Shown here one piece after another: positions 11,390 to 54,450 of a stretch of 64,000 nucleotides of DNA. The stretch comes from Cytobacillus gottheilii. Lineage in GTDB: Bacteria > Bacillota > Bacilli > Bacillales > Cytobacillaceae. The notes beneath the pieces are model-generated. The model did not search any database and was not told where the DNA came from. It saw only the letters and a program-made list of their open reading frames with translations. A program made the translations under genes and the position numbers. The stretch lies in contig NZ_LT800494.1 in NCBI RefSeq assembly GCF_900166665.1, positions 4,632,001-4,696,000 on the forward strand, read 5' to 3'. Position 1 is the first letter of the stretch; every line of letters starts with the position of its first letter.

Positions 11390-12079
11390 ATGTTTGTAAT
11401 CAGCAAAAGGGAATTTTTCAGTTTATTTAAAAGTATAAAGTCCATTATAGTCATCGCAATTTTATTAGCAACTGCTTATTATTCATCGAAATTCTCAAAT
11501 GTATTAACGAATGTCATAGACTTTACTGCAGATGAAATGAACTATGTTCATACAATTGGTCTGCTTTCATTATTGTTATTGTTTGGACAATTATTTGTAT
11601 TAGGACTTTCACATGATTGCATTAATAGAGAAACACATGAACGCACAATGCGTTTTCTGGTGACAAGAACATCCCGGTCGTCTATTATGTTCGGAAAATT
11701 TTTGGGGATTGTTCTATTCTGGACAGTCTGTGTCACCATATCGTTTTTAATCATCAGCATTTTTGCCAAACAGTTCGACTTTTTTAGCTTTTTTCAAGTC
11801 ATGAGCCTTTTAATCTACCAGATCTCATTGACGGTTCTGCTTTCTACAATCATACCTAAGCCAGGCATTACCATGTTCCTCGGCATTCTCCTTGGTATCG
11901 CCTATCCGATTTTTGGGATGTGGATTACGTTTACGTCAAATGAATGGGTAAGCTGGCTTAAGTTTGTCACTCCATTTTACTATTTAGAGCATGATAACTA
12001 TTTATTCTTGATTATTAACATACTGGCGGCATTTCTGCTGTTTATCTCAGCTATCATTTTCAAAAGGAGGGAATTTTAA
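11390..12079 (+). CDS. ABC-2 type transporter permease
   Basis: A 229-residue membrane protein with six predicted spans, typical of ABC-2 exporter permeases. The segment INRETHERTMRFLVTRTSRSSIMFGKF between the second and third spans is the usual cytoplasmic coupling region. The ATG at 11390 follows AAGGGAG by about 12 bp. An ATG at 11369 is in frame but has no ribosome-binding site. It overlaps the ATPase gene by one base (TAATG), so the two are translated together. The substrate is unknown; peptide antibiotic or lipid export is common for this family. Confidence 0.85.
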   Translation: MFVISKREFFSLFKSIKSIIVIAILLATAYYSSKFSNVLTNVIDFTADEMNYVHTIGLLSLLLLFGQLFVLGLSHDCINRETHERTMRFLVTRTSRSSIMFGKFLGIVLFWTVCVTISFLIISIFAKQFDFFSFFQVMSLLIYQISLTVLLSTIIPKPGITMFLGILLGIAYPIFGMWITFTSNEWVSWLKFVTPFYYLEHDNYLFLIINILAAFLLFISAIIFKRREF

Positions 12080-12984
12080 TGACCGCGATTGAAACGGCTC
12101 AGTTAAGGAAGGCATATGGAGCACATCAAGTGGTGAAGGGAATTGATCTGGTTATAGAAAAGGGCGAAGTTTTTGGTTTTCTTGGCCGCAATGGTGCCGG
12201 AAAATCAACATTCATTAATATGCTGACAGGCATTATCCACCCGACATCCGGCACCTTTTCGCTGCTTGGTGTTCAGGGCTCTATTGAGAAAGTAAAGAAA
12301 CGGGTTGGTGTAATGCCTGACTACTCTACTTTTTATGAATCTTTAACGGCATTTGATCATTTAAAGTTTCTGTCAGCACTTTCTGGAAAGCCTACTGGCA
12401 AACAACATTGTATGGCGGTCTTGCGGTCTGTCGGATTAGATGAGCATGCACATGTTAAAACCTCTAAATTTTCTTTTGGCATGAAAAAGAAGCTCGGTAT
12501 TGCCCAGGCAATCATTCATGACCCGGAGCTCATTTTTCTCGATGAACCAACGTCTGGATTAGATGCAGAATCTGTTCTTCATATTCATAAGCTGATTCGT
12601 GATTTAAAAGAGCGCGGAAAGACCATTTTTATGACCTCCCACAATTTAGATGAGGTAGAAAAAGTGTGCACCCGAATTGCCATCATGAAAGAAGGCAAGG
12701 TTGGCAAAATTGGCACGATGGAGGAACTGCGGACTTTTTACCGTTCCACACTGACTGTAACGGTTAAGCATTCTCCTATGTCTAAAGGAGATCATCATAC
12801 AATGATGGAATGGCTGCAAACAGTGGGCACTGATGTTTCTGCTGCTGATTCACAAGTCACACTTACCCTTGATCATGAGAAAAAAATTGCAGAAGTCATC
12901 CGTGCTTTTAATCAGAAAAAAATCGATGTGTACCGTGTCAGTGTTGATGAACCTTCGCTTGAGGAGATATTTTTAGAAGAGTAA
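12079..12984 (+). CDS. ABC transporter ATP-binding protein
   Basis: A 301-residue ATPase of the exporter type. Walker A is GRNGAGKST at 36-44, the signature is FSFGMKKK in place of LSGGQ as in BcrA/CcmA-like ATPases, and Walker B is LIFLDEPTSGLD with an H-loop in MTSHNLDEVEK. A C-terminal extension of about 80 residues ends SLEEIFLEE, as in drug-exporter ATPases. The ribosome-binding site AAAGGAGG lies inside the end of the permease gene. With the permease it forms a full exporter. The gene is followed by the 314-bp repeat element rather than by a simple terminator. Confidence 0.93.
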   Translation: MTAIETAQLRKAYGAHQVVKGIDLVIEKGEVFGFLGRNGAGKSTFINMLTGIIHPTSGTFSLLGVQGSIEKVKKRVGVMPDYSTFYESLTAFDHLKFLSALSGKPTGKQHCMAVLRSVGLDEHAHVKTSKFSFGMKKKLGIAQAIIHDPELIFLDEPTSGLDAESVLHIHKLIRDLKERGKTIFMTSHNLDEVEKVCTRIAIMKEGKVGKIGTMEELRTFYRSTLTVTVKHSPMSKGDHHTMMEWLQTVGTDVSAADSQVTLTLDHEKKIAEVIRAFNQKKIDVYRVSVDEPSLEEIFLEE

Positions 12985-12999
12985 AAGGTGACAAAATTT

Positions 13000-13313
13000 A
13001 AGAGGCTGGGACAAAACGAAATTAATCTTTCTAAAACACGAATATTCAATATCATGGTTTAGGTATATACAAATCCGTTCCATTGCGCTGCAGACCCTCG
13101 CTTTCCGCGGGGAGGAAGCTGAGCCTCCTCGGAGCAAGCTCCTGCGGGGTCTCACCTTTTCCTCTATTGCCCACAGGAGTCGAGGGCCCCCGCTCCATTT
13201 CACTCATGTTAATAAAATATATTTTATAATCATAAAAAACCGAATGGTTAGAAAGATGACTTCCTAACCATTCGGTTCTATGGGTGTGTTAAATACTTTT
13301 GTCCCAGCCTCTT
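13000..13313. repeat. Repeat element with 17-bp terminal inverted repeats
   Basis: The ends AAGAGGCTGGGACAAAA (13000-13016) and its exact complement (13297-13313) bound a 314-bp unit that fills the gap between two convergent genes. Inside are a GC-rich core (13090-13195) whose sequence recurs at 20330-20446, and a second hairpin pairing 13238-13251 with 13264-13277. No reading frame of credible coding potential is inside. The outer repeat plus flanking T-run can act as a terminator for both neighbouring genes. It looks like a non-autonomous MITE-like or REP-like element; no target-site duplication is clear. GAGGCTGGGACAAAA-type hairpins are, to my knowledge, frequent in Firmicutes. Confidence 0.75.
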
Positions 13314-13345: not shown

Positions 13346-15049
13346 TCAAATTCTCGTCCAAACTCCAACACTTCTGATTTCTTTATATTCTGGTTCCCAT
13401 ACTGCATCGTTTACAGCTTTAGCAGGATCTGTTATTTCTGCTCTTGCAATTCCCTCTTCCATTGCTGCTTTTGCTACTTGAACTGCCACATAAATCGATA
13501 CTTCATGCAAATGCTCAATAGATGGAAGAAGAGATGCACCAGGCTGACTGCTGTCAGACATTTCGGCAACGGCATTTGAAGCGGCAACGAACATCCCTTT
13601 TGAAATAACTTCGGCTTTAGCCACTATCGCTCCAAGTCCCAGCCCGGGGAATACAAATGCATTGTTCGACTGACCAATCTCATAAGTGATTCCATTATGT
13701 TCGATATTATTAAACGGACTGCCAGTGGCAATAAGCGCTTTTCCATCTGTCCATTTAATCAGGTTTTCAGGTACAGCTTCTGCAAGAGAAGTCGGATTAG
13801 ACATCGGCATGATGATCGGGCGTTCCACATGTTTTGCCATCTCTTTAATAATCTCTTCTGTAAACGCACCCGCTTGTCCAGAAGTACCAATTAAAATCGT
13901 AGGCTTTACTCTCTGCACAACTTCTTTTAATGTTATAAGTCCTTCCTCATTACGGTCCCAGCCTTCTACTTCTGCAGCTGATCTGACATAAGGCTTTTGG
14001 AAGTCAAAAACATCTGGTGTTTCATCTGTCAGTAAACCTCTGTAATCAATAGCCCAGAACTGTCCATATGCCTCTTCTTTTGTCAGTCCATCAAGAATCA
14101 TAGCATCAGCGATTTGATCAGCATTTCCAATTCCGGCAGCTCCTGGTCCAAAGACCACAACGCGCTGATCCTTCATAGAAACTCCTGTGACTTTCAACGC
14201 TGACATAATTGCAGCAAGTGTAACTGCACCTGTCCCTTGGATGTCATCATTGAACGTAAGGATTTTATCACCATATTTATCTAATATTTTACGGGCATTT
14301 ACATTCCCAAAATCCTCCCAGTGAAGAAGAACTTCCGGAAAATGAGATCTAGCAGACTCAATAAATGAATCAATAAATTCATCATATTGCTCGCCGCGAA
14401 CACGAGGGATTTTATTCCCTACATAAAGAGGATCAGAAATTAGTTCCTGATTGTTTGTCCCCACATCCAGGACGACCGGAAGAACACGGCTAGGGTCAAT
14501 ACCAGCAGCTGCTGTATAAACAGCAAGCTTTCCGATAGCAATATTAATGCCTCCTACCCCTTGATCTCCAATGCCAAGAATACTTTCGGAGTCTGTAACA
14601 ACGATTAAATCGATTCCATCTTTAGGCTGCCCAAGGTTTTGAAAGGCTTCTTCAATTCCTTTTGGATCATCGATAGAAAGGTATAAGCCCCCTGGGCGAC
14701 GGTAAGTATGTGAGTAGGACTGGATTGCATCGCTGACCGTAGGTGTATAAATAATTGGCAGCATTTCTGCTAAGTGCTCTTTTAGCAGCCGATAGAATAA
14801 AACAACATTGCGGTTATATAAATCATATAGCAATCCGTTTTTAAACAAATTAGTCGTTCTCATTGAGTATTGCTCATAAGCTCTGCTTACTTGCTCCTCT
14901 AATGTAAGAACCTGTGCAGGCAGAAGTCCATTCAGACCCAGGTCTTCTCTTTCCTCTTTTGTAAATGCGATCCCTTTATTTAAATAAGGATTAGAGAGGA
15001 TTTCTTTCCCTTTTAATGGTGTGATAATAATATCCTTAGAAGCACTCAT
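13346..15049 (-). CDS. maeA: NAD-dependent malic enzyme
   Basis: A 567-residue large-form malic enzyme that converts malate to pyruvate, CO2 and NADH. Motifs are [26 protein letters not shown] (malate/NAD region), [15 protein letters not shown] with the metal-binding Asp residues, and the Rossmann motif [13 protein letters not shown]. The length fits both MaeA and MalS of B. subtilis, and the symbol is chosen from its place beside MalK/MalR, which control maeA there. The ATG at 15049 follows GAAGGA. It is last in a same-strand series malK, malR, transporter, malic enzyme. A hairpin before it suggests partly separate transcription. Confidence 0.92.
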
Positions 15050-15159
15050 GAAATTTCCTTCTTTCTTTATAATAAGGTTGTCTATTATCTTATTTTAACA
15101 TGTTCATTACCTTTGAATTCTACTTATAGGTAATTAACTTATTTATATTATTTTCTAAC

Positions 15160-15197
15160 TAAACAAAGCAGACAGTATGAATGCTGCCTGCTTTGCA
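15160..15197 (-). terminator. Hairpin after the transporter gene
   Basis: CTGCTTTG at 15188-15195 pairs with CAAAGCAG at 15164-15171, extended by CAG/CTG inside. The downstream tail on the minus strand (TTTAGTTAG) is only weakly T-rich, so termination may be partial and allow read-through into the malic enzyme gene. Confidence 0.5.
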
Positions 15198-15212
15198 TTT
15201 GTCTTGTTAAAA

Positions 15213-16556
15213 TTAGCTTACCAATTTCAAAAGCATAATCGCAAGGATTACAGTAGCTGCACCGCCAAGTCTTGTTGCAATTTGTGCGAAAGGCATTAAT
15301 GACATACGGTTGGATGCCGAGAGAATCGCAACATCTCCAGTCCCTCCAAGTCCGCTATGACAGCCTGTTACAATTGCTGAATCAATTGGATGCATATTCA
15401 TAAGCTTTCCAACAAAATAACCTGTTGCAACCATAGCAACAACGACTGCGACACACACAACGATGTATGAAGGAGTGACAATCTTTACAACATCTTCTAA
15501 TGGAATGTACAAAAGACCCAGTCCAACCATTAATGGCCACGTTAAGCTTGAAGATACAAATTTATACATATGGTGTGCACCTTGTTCAATCTTTGCAGGA
15601 ACAAGCTTGAAGCACTTAACCAATGCAGCTGCAACAATCATTAATACTGGACCAGGCATTCCCAGCACCATATGGCCAAGTCCGCCAACAATAAAGAACG
15701 TACAAGCAATTAAAAGACCTGCACCCATTAGTGGGAAATCAACTGGTTTATTAATGGTAGTGGATTCTGTAATGCCGTCTCCCCCTTTGGATTTAACCAA
15801 AGTACCATTTCCAGTTAAATGTGGTTTCTTTGTTCCTAAGCGGGAAAGAAGACCAGCACAAATGATGGCTGCAATATTCCCGATGACTGCCGCTGGAATT
15901 AACTGTCCAACAAATGTTTCTGCATCAGCACCTAAAACTTGCCCGTATCCAATGGAAAGCGGCAGAATACCTTCACCAATTCCTCCCCCGATAATCGGAA
16001 CAACGATAAAGAATAATGTGTGCTTAGCGGAATACCCAAACAGCATGCCCACCAAAACTCCAGCCCCTACTGAAGCAAGCGTACCAAGAACGAGCGGTAC
16101 AAACATTTTTGAGAAACCTTGAAGAAGCACTTTGCGGTTCATGCCAAGAATACTTCCTGCTACAAGGATTGAGATATAAAGATATAAAAAGTTCGATGAT
16201 TTCATTAATTGAGTTACTGCTGTCATACCTGTTTCATTAATTAGATTAAAATACGCTAATATGGATGGTACGAGCAAAGCCATAATTGCAGGTCCGCCAA
16301 TATCCTTTAAAACAGGGATTTTCATCCCAATTTCCCCCAGAAGAATCCCCATTGTGATAATGATGGCGAAGCCGCCAATCATATCTGTAGGCAATACTTC
16401 ATAAACTGTTGCAAGATAAACAACTGTAGCGATACATAGATAAAGCGGTAATGGAATAACCCCGATATTTATATGAAGTAAATTAAATTTACTTTTTGCA
16501 CCAGAACCTCCAGGAATAGGAGTAAGCGATTCCAATTTCTTAGCTGTTTGTGCCAT
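15213..16556 (-). CDS. 2-hydroxycarboxylate transporter (MaeN/CimH type)
   Basis: A 447-residue secondary transporter of the 2HCT family, which moves malate or citrate with sodium or protons. It has about 11 hydrophobic spans and the two family motifs: GGGIGEGILPLSIGYG in the first half and CHSGLGGTGDVAILSASNRMSLMPFAQ in the second, the paired GGxG re-entrant loops. The ATG at 16556 follows AGGGGG. Neighbours MalK, MalR and malic enzyme make malate the likely substrate, as with MaeN of B. subtilis (448 residues), but CimH-like citrate/malate uptake cannot be excluded. A perfect palindrome lies in its promoter region. Confidence 0.88.
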   Translation of the reverse strand: MAQTAKKLESLTPIPGGSGAKSKFNLLHINIGVIPLPLYLCIATVVYLATVYEVLPTDMIGGFAIIITMGILLGEIGMKIPVLKDIGGPAIMALLVPSILAYFNLINETGMTAVTQLMKSSNFLYLYISILVAGSILGMNRKVLLQGFSKMFVPLVLGTLASVGAGVLVGMLFGYSAKHTLFFIVVPIIGGGIGEGILPLSIGYGQVLGADAETFVGQLIPAAVIGNIAAIICAGLLSRLGTKKPHLTGNGTLVKSKGGDGITESTTINKPVDFPLMGAGLLIACTFFIVGGLGHMVLGMPGPVLMIVAAALVKCFKLVPAKIEQGAHHMYKFVSSSLTWPLMVGLGLLYIPLEDVVKIVTPSYIVVCVAVVVAMVATGYFVGKLMNMHPIDSAIVTGCHSGLGGTGDVAILSASNRMSLMPFAQIATRLGGAATVILAIMLLKLVS

Positions 16557-16591
16557 ACATAAATCCCCCTTTGATTTGTTACTGGTTCATC

Positions 16592-16627
16592 ATAGTATTT
16601 AGTAAACCGTTTTCATAGTTTATGAAA
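16592..16627 (-). promoter_or_regulatory. Candidate MalR-dependent promoter of the malate transporter
   Basis: The palindrome TTTCATA-3 bp-TATGAAA occupies 16611-16627. Downstream on the minus strand is a -10-like TACTAT (16592-16597), while the -35 position is not consensus and is covered by the palindrome. That is the layout of an activator-dependent promoter. MalR as the binder is inference from gene context. Confidence 0.5.
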
Positions 16628-16644
16628 GTTTATCCCTTCTTTTT

Positions 16645-16682
16645 GTAAATAAAAAAAGTAAGCAGGATAATTCACTGCTTAC
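16645..16682 (-). terminator. Terminator after malR
   Basis: GTAAGCAG at 16675-16682 (minus strand) pairs with CTGCTTAC at 16658-16665 around a 9-base loop and is followed by a run of seven T. It overlaps the malR stop codon. Confidence 0.85.
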
Positions 16683-17386
16683 AAAAAATTTTTTATTAGA
16701 TGTTCTTTAAAGCGATTATATTCGTGCTGGTAAACGGGCCTGCCAACCGTTCCATAGATGACTTTTACATCCAATATACCAATTTCCTTTAAGAAATTAA
16801 GATATTTTCTGGCAGATACTCTTGATATGCCAACATTTTCGGCAACCTCATCTGTTGAAAAAGCTGTTCTTTTTAATTCTTGTACAGATTCCCATACCTG
16901 TTTTAGTGTATCTTTTGTTAAGCCCTTTGGAAGTTCTTCCGCTATGGCCGTTTCTTCCCTGTTTAAAAGATAATGATCAAGCTCCTGCTGACTAAATTCT
17001 TTTTGCTTATAAGCCAGCATTGCTTTTTGCTGGTAACTTGTTAGTGCAGCATTGAATCTTTCAAACTCAAACGGTTTGATTAAATAGTCTGCCACTCCAT
17101 ATCGCAATGCTTTTTGAATTCGTCCCAAGTCAGATGCAGCTGAGATAATAATGACATCTATTTCAAGCTCGTTTTTCCTAAGGTACGTTAATAGTTCAAG
17201 TCCAACCTTACCTGGCATAAAAAGATCTAAAAGAATCAGCTGAATGTCATTACTCTTCAGCAAACGGATCGCTTCATCAACTGAGCCCGCAGTTGCAGTT
17301 AAACGAAAACCCTCAATCTTTGAAAGATATTGCTTATTAATTTCCGCTACCATCGGGTCATCTTCAACAATCATCACTTGAATCAT
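16679..17386 (-). CDS. malR: MalR-type response regulator (CitB/DctR family)
   Basis: A 235-residue regulator with a receiver domain carrying the acidic pair E8-D9-D10, phospho-acceptor D54 in LILLDLFMPGK and conserved Lys in DYLIKPFEFE. A helix-turn-helix follows (FSTDEVAENVGISRVSARKYL region). Length and architecture match B. subtilis MalR, which activates malate uptake and malic enzyme genes. It starts 2 bp after the kinase stop with AAGGGGAA as ribosome-binding site, so the two are translationally linked. A terminator follows directly. Confidence 0.88.
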   Translation of the reverse strand: MIQVMIVEDDPMVAEINKQYLSKIEGFRLTATAGSVDEAIRLLKSNDIQLILLDLFMPGKVGLELLTYLRKNELEIDVIIISAASDLGRIQKALRYGVADYLIKPFEFERFNAALTSYQQKAMLAYKQKEFSQQELDHYLLNREETAIAEELPKGLTKDTLKQVWESVQELKRTAFSTDEVAENVGISRVSARKYLNFLKEIGILDVKVIYGTVGRPVYQHEYNRFKEHLIKNFL

Positions 17387-20134: not shown

Positions 20135-20232
20135 ATATTCCCTCCTAATAATTCCATAATTCATTCGTTTTTTGGTTTCATATATCACACAATAAGTTCC
20201 GGGGCTTATCGTGGGTTTAATAACAATACCAT
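20135..20232 (-). ncRNA. L13 leader (autoregulatory mRNA leader)
   Basis: The roughly 100-nt untranslated leader of rplM contains a 9-bp stem pairing CACGATAAG with CTTATTGTG (20205-20213 and 20188-20196) around CCCCGGAA. This resembles the L13 leader of low-GC Gram-positive bacteria, where L13 is thought to bind and repress its own operon. The assignment is by position and remembered motif; a covariance-model search would decide it. Confidence 0.65.
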
Positions 20233-39112: not shown

Positions 39113-39508
<396 letters not shown>

Positions 39509-39552
39509 TCAGCAACCTTTCACATCATCGCAGTCAAAGACCAACATTGTCT

Positions 39553-54261: not shown

Positions 54262-54304
54262 CCTTACACCTCCTGTAGAATTTCTGCATTTATACCGGCC
54301 GGCT

Positions 54305-54450
54305 TATAAAAAACCTCCATATCCGAAAGAGACATGGAGGTTGTATACAATAGCTAATGTAAGCAATCAATCTATCGTATGACCTCGGCAGGAAATTAAG
54401 CTATAAGCACCTGCTGTCTTCGGTACAAATGTTATTTATTTTTCACAACA
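54305..54450 (-). ncRNA. L10 leader (ribosomal protein autoregulatory element)
   Basis: The untranslated leader of rplJ contains the paired segments ACCGAAGACAGCAGGTGC and TTTCCTGCCGAGGT characteristic of the L10-binding kink-turn element. It ends in a 9-bp hairpin (54334-54342 with 54312-54320) followed by six T, an attenuator. L10 binding is expected to favour termination. Confidence 0.88.

Follow-up and report, generated by a model that had tools for sequence, protein, structure and literature searches.

A miniature element with the ends of an IS1182-family subgroup that probably replaces terminator hairpins in Cytobacillus gottheilii

What is a structured and apparently gene-free piece of DNA with inverted ends doing between two convergent genes, and what occupied its place before? 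The question is raised by 314 bases at positions 13000-13313 (+, in the orientation of the family consensus) of the window, the whole 64,000-nucleotide stretch of Cytobacillus gottheilii DNA that was analysed; these boundaries were set by extraction of copies, a check of the terminal inverted repeats (TIRs) and an empty site in a sister genome. Upstream lies an ABC-transporter ATPase gene (12079-12984, +) and downstream a malic enzyme gene (13346-15049, −), both named from sequence, and the convergent intergenic setting given in a preliminary description of this DNA is thereby borne out. The statement that no gene lies inside also holds, as only a mechanical 76-aa open reading frame (ORF; 12973-13203, −) overlaps the element and is not convincing as a gene. 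Upstream of the malic enzyme ORF on the − strand stand a carboxylate-symporter-like ORF (15213-16556) and a response-regulator-like ORF (16679-17386), and 13346-17386 (−) resembles what we take to be a malate-use locus, its ORFs being named from sequence. Elsewhere in the window, 54299-54441, 20169-20230 and 39437-39536, all on the − strand, match L10_leader, L13_leader and S10-Clostridia, respectively, at or above the Rfam gathering score.

The left TIR, AAGAGGCTGGGACAAAA (13000-13016, +), and the right TIR, TTTTGTCCCAGCCTCTT (13297-13313, +), are exact inverse complements over 17 nt, as had been claimed, and were defined by inverse-complement comparison together with a genome-wide count of ends. 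Gapless extension of the window copy carries the match to 24 nt at 88%. The usual right end across the family is TTATGTCCCAGCCTCTT, with one mismatch to the left end, and the perfect 17 bp of the window copy would seem to be partly luck. Between the ends lie a GC-rich core folding as one long imperfect hairpin (13092-13188, on neither strand in particular; homologous stretch 13075-13206) and a predicted internal intrinsic terminator with a 20-pair stem and a T run (13236-13279, −), which reads leftwards behind the malic enzyme gene. The structured core and the 3′ hairpin described earlier are both real by folding, with z-scores of −6.6 (+ strand) and −9.6 (− strand) and none of 100 shuffles equally stable, and an Rfam 15 search of the element gave no match at the gathering score.

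The element belongs to a large family, with at least 68 full-length copies in its own genome. The DNA search of this genome scored the best 40 of 313 first-look candidates, with 40 long matches listed, and the first 100 of 134 matches to the end 15-mer were listed; as 93 loci were examined, the 68 copies extracted from them are a lower bound. Identity to the window copy is 79.7-94.3%, and the mean pairwise identity is 86.5%. Chance is excluded by the count of the end 15-mer (one mismatch allowed), which occurs 68 and 66 times on the two strands against 1 and 0 for a reversed control. A search of the genome and its relatives for the pair of ends, proposed in the preliminary description, was run and found the pattern in 18 places here, in one place in the sister and in none of 34 other congeners (control 0), and thus in two of the 36 genomes of the genus. 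On plasmids, the element matched seven records, none covering 80% of it and mostly in the core.

The copies are not all independent, since L039/L040 and L041/L042 have identical flanks and duplicated segments give L074/L076/L080 and L004/L006 1-1.8 kb in common; most copies have unrelated flanks. The segments of about 1-1.8 kb that adjoin copies (L074, L076, L080; L004, L006; L003) recur with 97-99.9% identity. The outer flanks of L003 and L076 lie side by side in the sister, an arrangement that would arise if stretches with an element at each end had been relocated or had recombined. At L037 and L054, one-sided element ends are followed by a single N and an identical efflux-pump-like stretch at both places; a reading of these two as larger elements was rejected, as a single N and then unrelated sequence are likely to mark assembly joins.

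What preceded the element can be read in the sister genome, C. gottheilii FJAT-2394 (G043). At the window locus its flanks are about 94% identical, and where the element sits it has AAAATTTAAAAGATCCCC-ATTA-GGGGATCTTTTAAATTTT, a perfect hairpin with the predicted make-up of a textbook intrinsic terminator. With 60 further sister stretches, both flanks were found for 33 element sites, sites with one flank only or with rearranged flanks in the sister being left out. Twenty-three of these sites are empty in the sister, five are filled in both genomes (L043, judged by eye, L044, L103, L108 and L114), and five were uninterpretable and set aside (L085, L091, L092, L106 and L116). The best hairpin is present at all 23 empty sites, and reaches or exceeds the 5% level of length-matched random sister windows at 20 and the 1% level at 16. 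In the own genome both arms of the old hairpin fall below 0.75 identity at 16 of the 23, and at the remaining seven one or both arms reach 0.75-0.86, values that concern short arms with a shuffled mean of 0.65-0.76. As a small control, five further hairpins of the aligned blocks were compared, and four are kept.

Such a pattern might also come about if the element had inserted in the ordinary way next to a terminator and the old terminator, then redundant, had decayed. Flanks and intergenic gaps have indeed diverged at several sites, and three hairpins are weak (L050, L069 and L105, matched by about 10-13% of random windows). However, the element lies in the hairpin's own place, edge to edge: at 10 of 22 sites (the 23 empty sites minus L104) both of its edges are no more than 6 nt from those of the hairpin, and a limit of 12 nt takes in 14 sites. 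Edges that fall inside the stem are often placed symmetrically (+7/−7, +7/−8, +9/−9); at the other eight sites the mapped edges are not within 12 nt of the hairpin, mostly where flanks have diverged. The exchange also runs in the opposite direction, as the C. gottheilii sister copy at 2313741 is an exact swap for AAGCACTCTGATCATTTTCAGAGTGCTT of the own genome and the copy at 305726 faces a hairpin there. These are the two clear hairpin-bearing empty sites among 15 sister copies tried, the others being filled in both genomes, having diverged or rearranged flanks, or not being located. No clear remnant of the old hairpin lies beside the element at the 23 empty sites, and no target duplication or direct repeat was seen by eye at the 68 flank pairs. 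Insertion followed by decay is on these grounds improbable. Direct replacement is preferred, in which insertion appears to remove the target hairpin without target duplication. The precise insertion with target duplication that had been suggested as a check thus gave a different answer, with no duplication and a pre-existing, putative terminator hairpin removed and replaced.

The likely source of the mobility is indicated by the ends. In congener G047 an IS1182 transposase gene, broken by an assembly gap, lies between AAGAGGGTGGGACAAAAC and TTATGTCCCAGCCTCTT, and among 348 genomes of the order, 66 have relatives of its protein at E <=1e-60. Both ends carry the TIR in 23 of the 25 loci that were read, and in 21 neither end departs from it by more than one mismatch; no left end is visible in the remaining two of the 25. 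The autonomous IS measures 1818-1849 bp in 20 of the 23 TIR-bearing loci. The C. gottheilii sister has four copies, 99.8-100% identical over about 1.83 kb, whose ends are those of the window element, with an IS1182 copy likewise starting AAGAGGCTGGGACAAAAC, as does the left TIR at 13000-13016. Against NF033551 the partner transposase reaches 441 bits (cut-off 270), and it also matches PF13751, PF01609 and PF05598, so that the TIR connects the element to NF033551 transposases by a link of sequence. GAGGCTGGGACAWAA is the TIR of an IS1182-family subgroup.

These Bacillales IS (L339-L348 and others, including the four in C. gottheilii) have the same TIR and a similar gene context as the element, and at two sites the same kind of empty site: own-genome sites were located for two of the four sister IS copies, both being terminator hairpins, and the other two were not located. 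Unlike the element, they are about 1.8 kb long and carry a transposase gene of about 545 aa, and subterminal and internal sequence is not shared, homology being confined to the ends. Since the window's own assembly has no match to a transposase of this type at E <=1e-10, the partner is deduced from the sister. With a TIR-sharing IS in the sister but not in the own assembly, the element is best read as a miniature, transposase-less element (MITE) whose driver is missing from the assembly. It has the features of one, being short, bounded by TIRs, without a transposase gene, present in many dispersed copies and matched by empty sites in a relative. That it is non-autonomous, dispersed and mobile, as first proposed, is accordingly upheld by the 68 copies, by filled against empty sister sites and by the autonomous IS with the same TIR.

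Three other IS were considered as partners and rejected. The resident IS1182 (506 aa, 1704 bp) has the TIR GAGGGCACTGAAAAA and insertions with 8-9 bp direct repeats, the 453-aa IS1182 of C. gottheilii and relatives has CAGACTGTAGACAAA-like ends with repeated hairpins outside, and the 547-aa IS of a congener (L166) ends in GGGGGTGTCCCAAAAG. IS1182 copies of the 452-453-aa type (L158, L161, L162 and relatives, in congeners) carry a whole terminator-like hairpin on both sides, which looks like a duplicated target.

Taken as a whole, the element is very probably a MITE of the IS1182-family subgroup with TIR GAGGCTGGGACAWAA, moved by replacement of terminator hairpins. The transposase-less miniature would derive from that subgroup, and a transposase present in the sister genome and absent from the own assembly would act in trans on its ends. 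The palindrome targeted would be that of a rho-independent terminator, with symmetric cuts at the stem base or close to it; the hairpin would be removed and the element left instead, with no target duplication. The lost terminator may then be replaced by the element's own − strand intrinsic terminator together with the TIRs, which would recreate the A..stem..T outline, and tandem copies would persist almost only if the internal terminator is oriented with the transcription of the upstream gene.

The gene context is consistent with targets of this kind. Placed among six-frame ORFs of at least 80 aa rather than annotated genes, 32 of the 68 copies lie between convergent genes, 29 between tandem genes and none between divergent genes, with seven unclassified. 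For same-end elements in other genomes the counts are 31 convergent, 20 tandem, 0 divergent and 11 unclassified, from 62 of 75 stretches (omitting nine that lacked a partner end and four from C. gottheilii), a set in which several Shouchella right ends are mis-assigned and lengths are unreliable there. The autonomous IS copies are convergent in 16 cases, tandem in two, divergent in none and unclassified in seven. Terminators as targets would account for this context, with copies lying behind genes because that is where their targets are, and none between divergent genes.

A predicted intrinsic terminator is present on the − strand of all 68 copies, and on the + strand too in nine. Of the 29 tandem copies, 28 are placed so that the gene upstream reads the − strand, that of the internal terminator (two-sided p ~1e-7), L094 being the exception in the other orientation, and in convergent pairs the two orientations stand at 15:17. 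As nearly all tandem upstream genes read the strand with the internal terminator, the element probably stands in for the terminator removed. The terminator role ascribed to it earlier is likewise favoured by gene context, orientation and the predicted − strand intrinsic terminator at 13279-13236.

We infer that the 28:1 bias reflects selection for copies that restore putative termination. Alternatively, transposition could be polar relative to the T tail of the target, with no selection for termination needed. The restriction of the bias to tandem pairs speaks for polarity, tandem targets being polar and convergent ones often two-sided. The two TIRs, however, are nearly identical, and same-TIR elements with other interiors in other genera divide into 13 in the same and seven in the opposite orientation, on a rough end assignment. 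TnSha1, moreover, according to the available part of its description, has been inserted in both orientations at one repA terminator (PMC4923244). Polarity by itself is unlikely, though it deserves to be kept in mind, and selection for restored termination is the reading we prefer.

Hairpin-targeted transposition that deletes the hairpin without duplication has been described for IS1272 and TnSha1 of staphylococci in the available parts of two reports (PMC5678879, PMC4923244). The second of these includes terminators among the insertion sites; in the available part of the first, neither the word 'terminator' nor 'MITE' turned up. As far as these texts go, both systems are like the element in using hairpin targets that include terminators, in removing all or part of the hairpin and in leaving no target duplication, and their transposase belongs to the same IS1182 family as the element's inferred partner. 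Unlike the element, they carry a transposase, and TnSha1 also a gene. The element is a gene-less, high-copy MITE that contains an internal terminator of its own and shows a bias in orientation, and the likeness is drawn without the letters of the IS1272 TIR. Group IIC introns are retroelements for which a terminator hairpin is the insertion landmark, and they insert beside it by reverse transcription without replacing it. They thus resemble the element in their use of terminator hairpins and differ in that the element replaces the hairpin. In the Bacillus cereus group, a relative, bcr1 (named in PMC2267715) is also a short, dispersed, intergenic structured repeat with mobile-element features; it is about 150 bp long and presumably of another family. 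An open-access literature search found no IS1182-family MITE and no terminator-replacing MITE. Hairpin-replacing transposition as such is known; the novelty here lies in the lack of a gene, the scale, sites that can be read both before and after the event, and the biased orientation.

Comparison of two sister genomes thus resolves some two dozen natural events for a single small element, and because the states before and after can be read, the target rule of terminator palindromes and symmetric removal is directly testable. The case illustrates one route by which bacteria can have many of their terminators replaced, and the 28:1 orientation bias makes a clean prediction for term-seq. There is also a warning, as hairpins with GAGGCTGGGACAWAA behind genes of Bacillaceae can be mobile DNA rather than host-evolved terminators. 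If the proposed mechanism is true, a single mobile sequence has taken the place of dozens of terminators native to one species. In several Bacillaceae genera the TIR encloses different interiors, of about 60-660 bp, so that the mechanism may be a general mode of terminator turnover in bacteria. On balance we lean towards a class of portable terminators, MITEs that swap host terminators for themselves by means of a hairpin-replacing IS1182 transposase, escape doing harm by having a terminator inside and are kept only in the restoring orientation.

The GC-rich core has a distribution of its own. Among 41 genomes searched with the element, 33 gave a match, and outside the own genome the matches listed were mostly to the core only. 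An alignment of 20 sequences shows the core as a conserved long hairpin; of its 35 pairs, 10 have both partners altered in one sequence or more. Copies without a core exist in the own genome (L036, L057 and L106), and at the shared site L044 the core is present here and absent in the sister. The core would accordingly be a separate hairpin repeat, widespread in Bacillales and nested in the element, and since core-less copies exist beside a widespread core, the unit may be seen as a mobile shell plus a nested hairpin repeat. It had been proposed that ends occurring independently of the core would make the unit a composite and not one element; the first part stands, as the core is separate and copies without it exist, but the ends still move as one unit. 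We know of no described name for this hairpin repeat, and it has no Rfam match at the gathering score. A B. subtilis 190-bp repeat is presumably a candidate for it, although a literature search for that identity found no paper; a text search with the letters of the TIR and core found only an unrelated viral paper.

The strong structure on both strands, the covariation of the core and the presence of some copies in duplicated segments are features that a structured terminator or regulatory RNA family, evolved by the host and spread by gene conversion or segmental duplication rather than as a transposon, could also show. Against this stand the presence and absence of the element site by site against unrelated hairpins, TIRs in common with an autonomous IS, the unrelated flanks of most copies and the want of an Rfam match at the gathering score, and we hold a host origin of this kind to be very improbable. 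A mobile element with a nested core is the reading retained.

The core is partly or wholly missing at L102, L121, L036, L057 and L106, and in L313 as compared with L323; by eye, the junctions resemble deletions between short repeats such as CCGTTCCA/CCGCTCCA, which fits slippage over the hairpin. The resident 1704-bp IS1182 (506 aa, TIR GAGGGCACTGAAAAA) lies at five loci of the own genome outside the window (L123-L127), each time in the apical loop of the core hairpin. The apparent IS1182 pairs at four of these loci are parted by runs of N and are probably single copies split by assembly, and the insertions are accompanied by 8-9 bp direct repeats of the loop.
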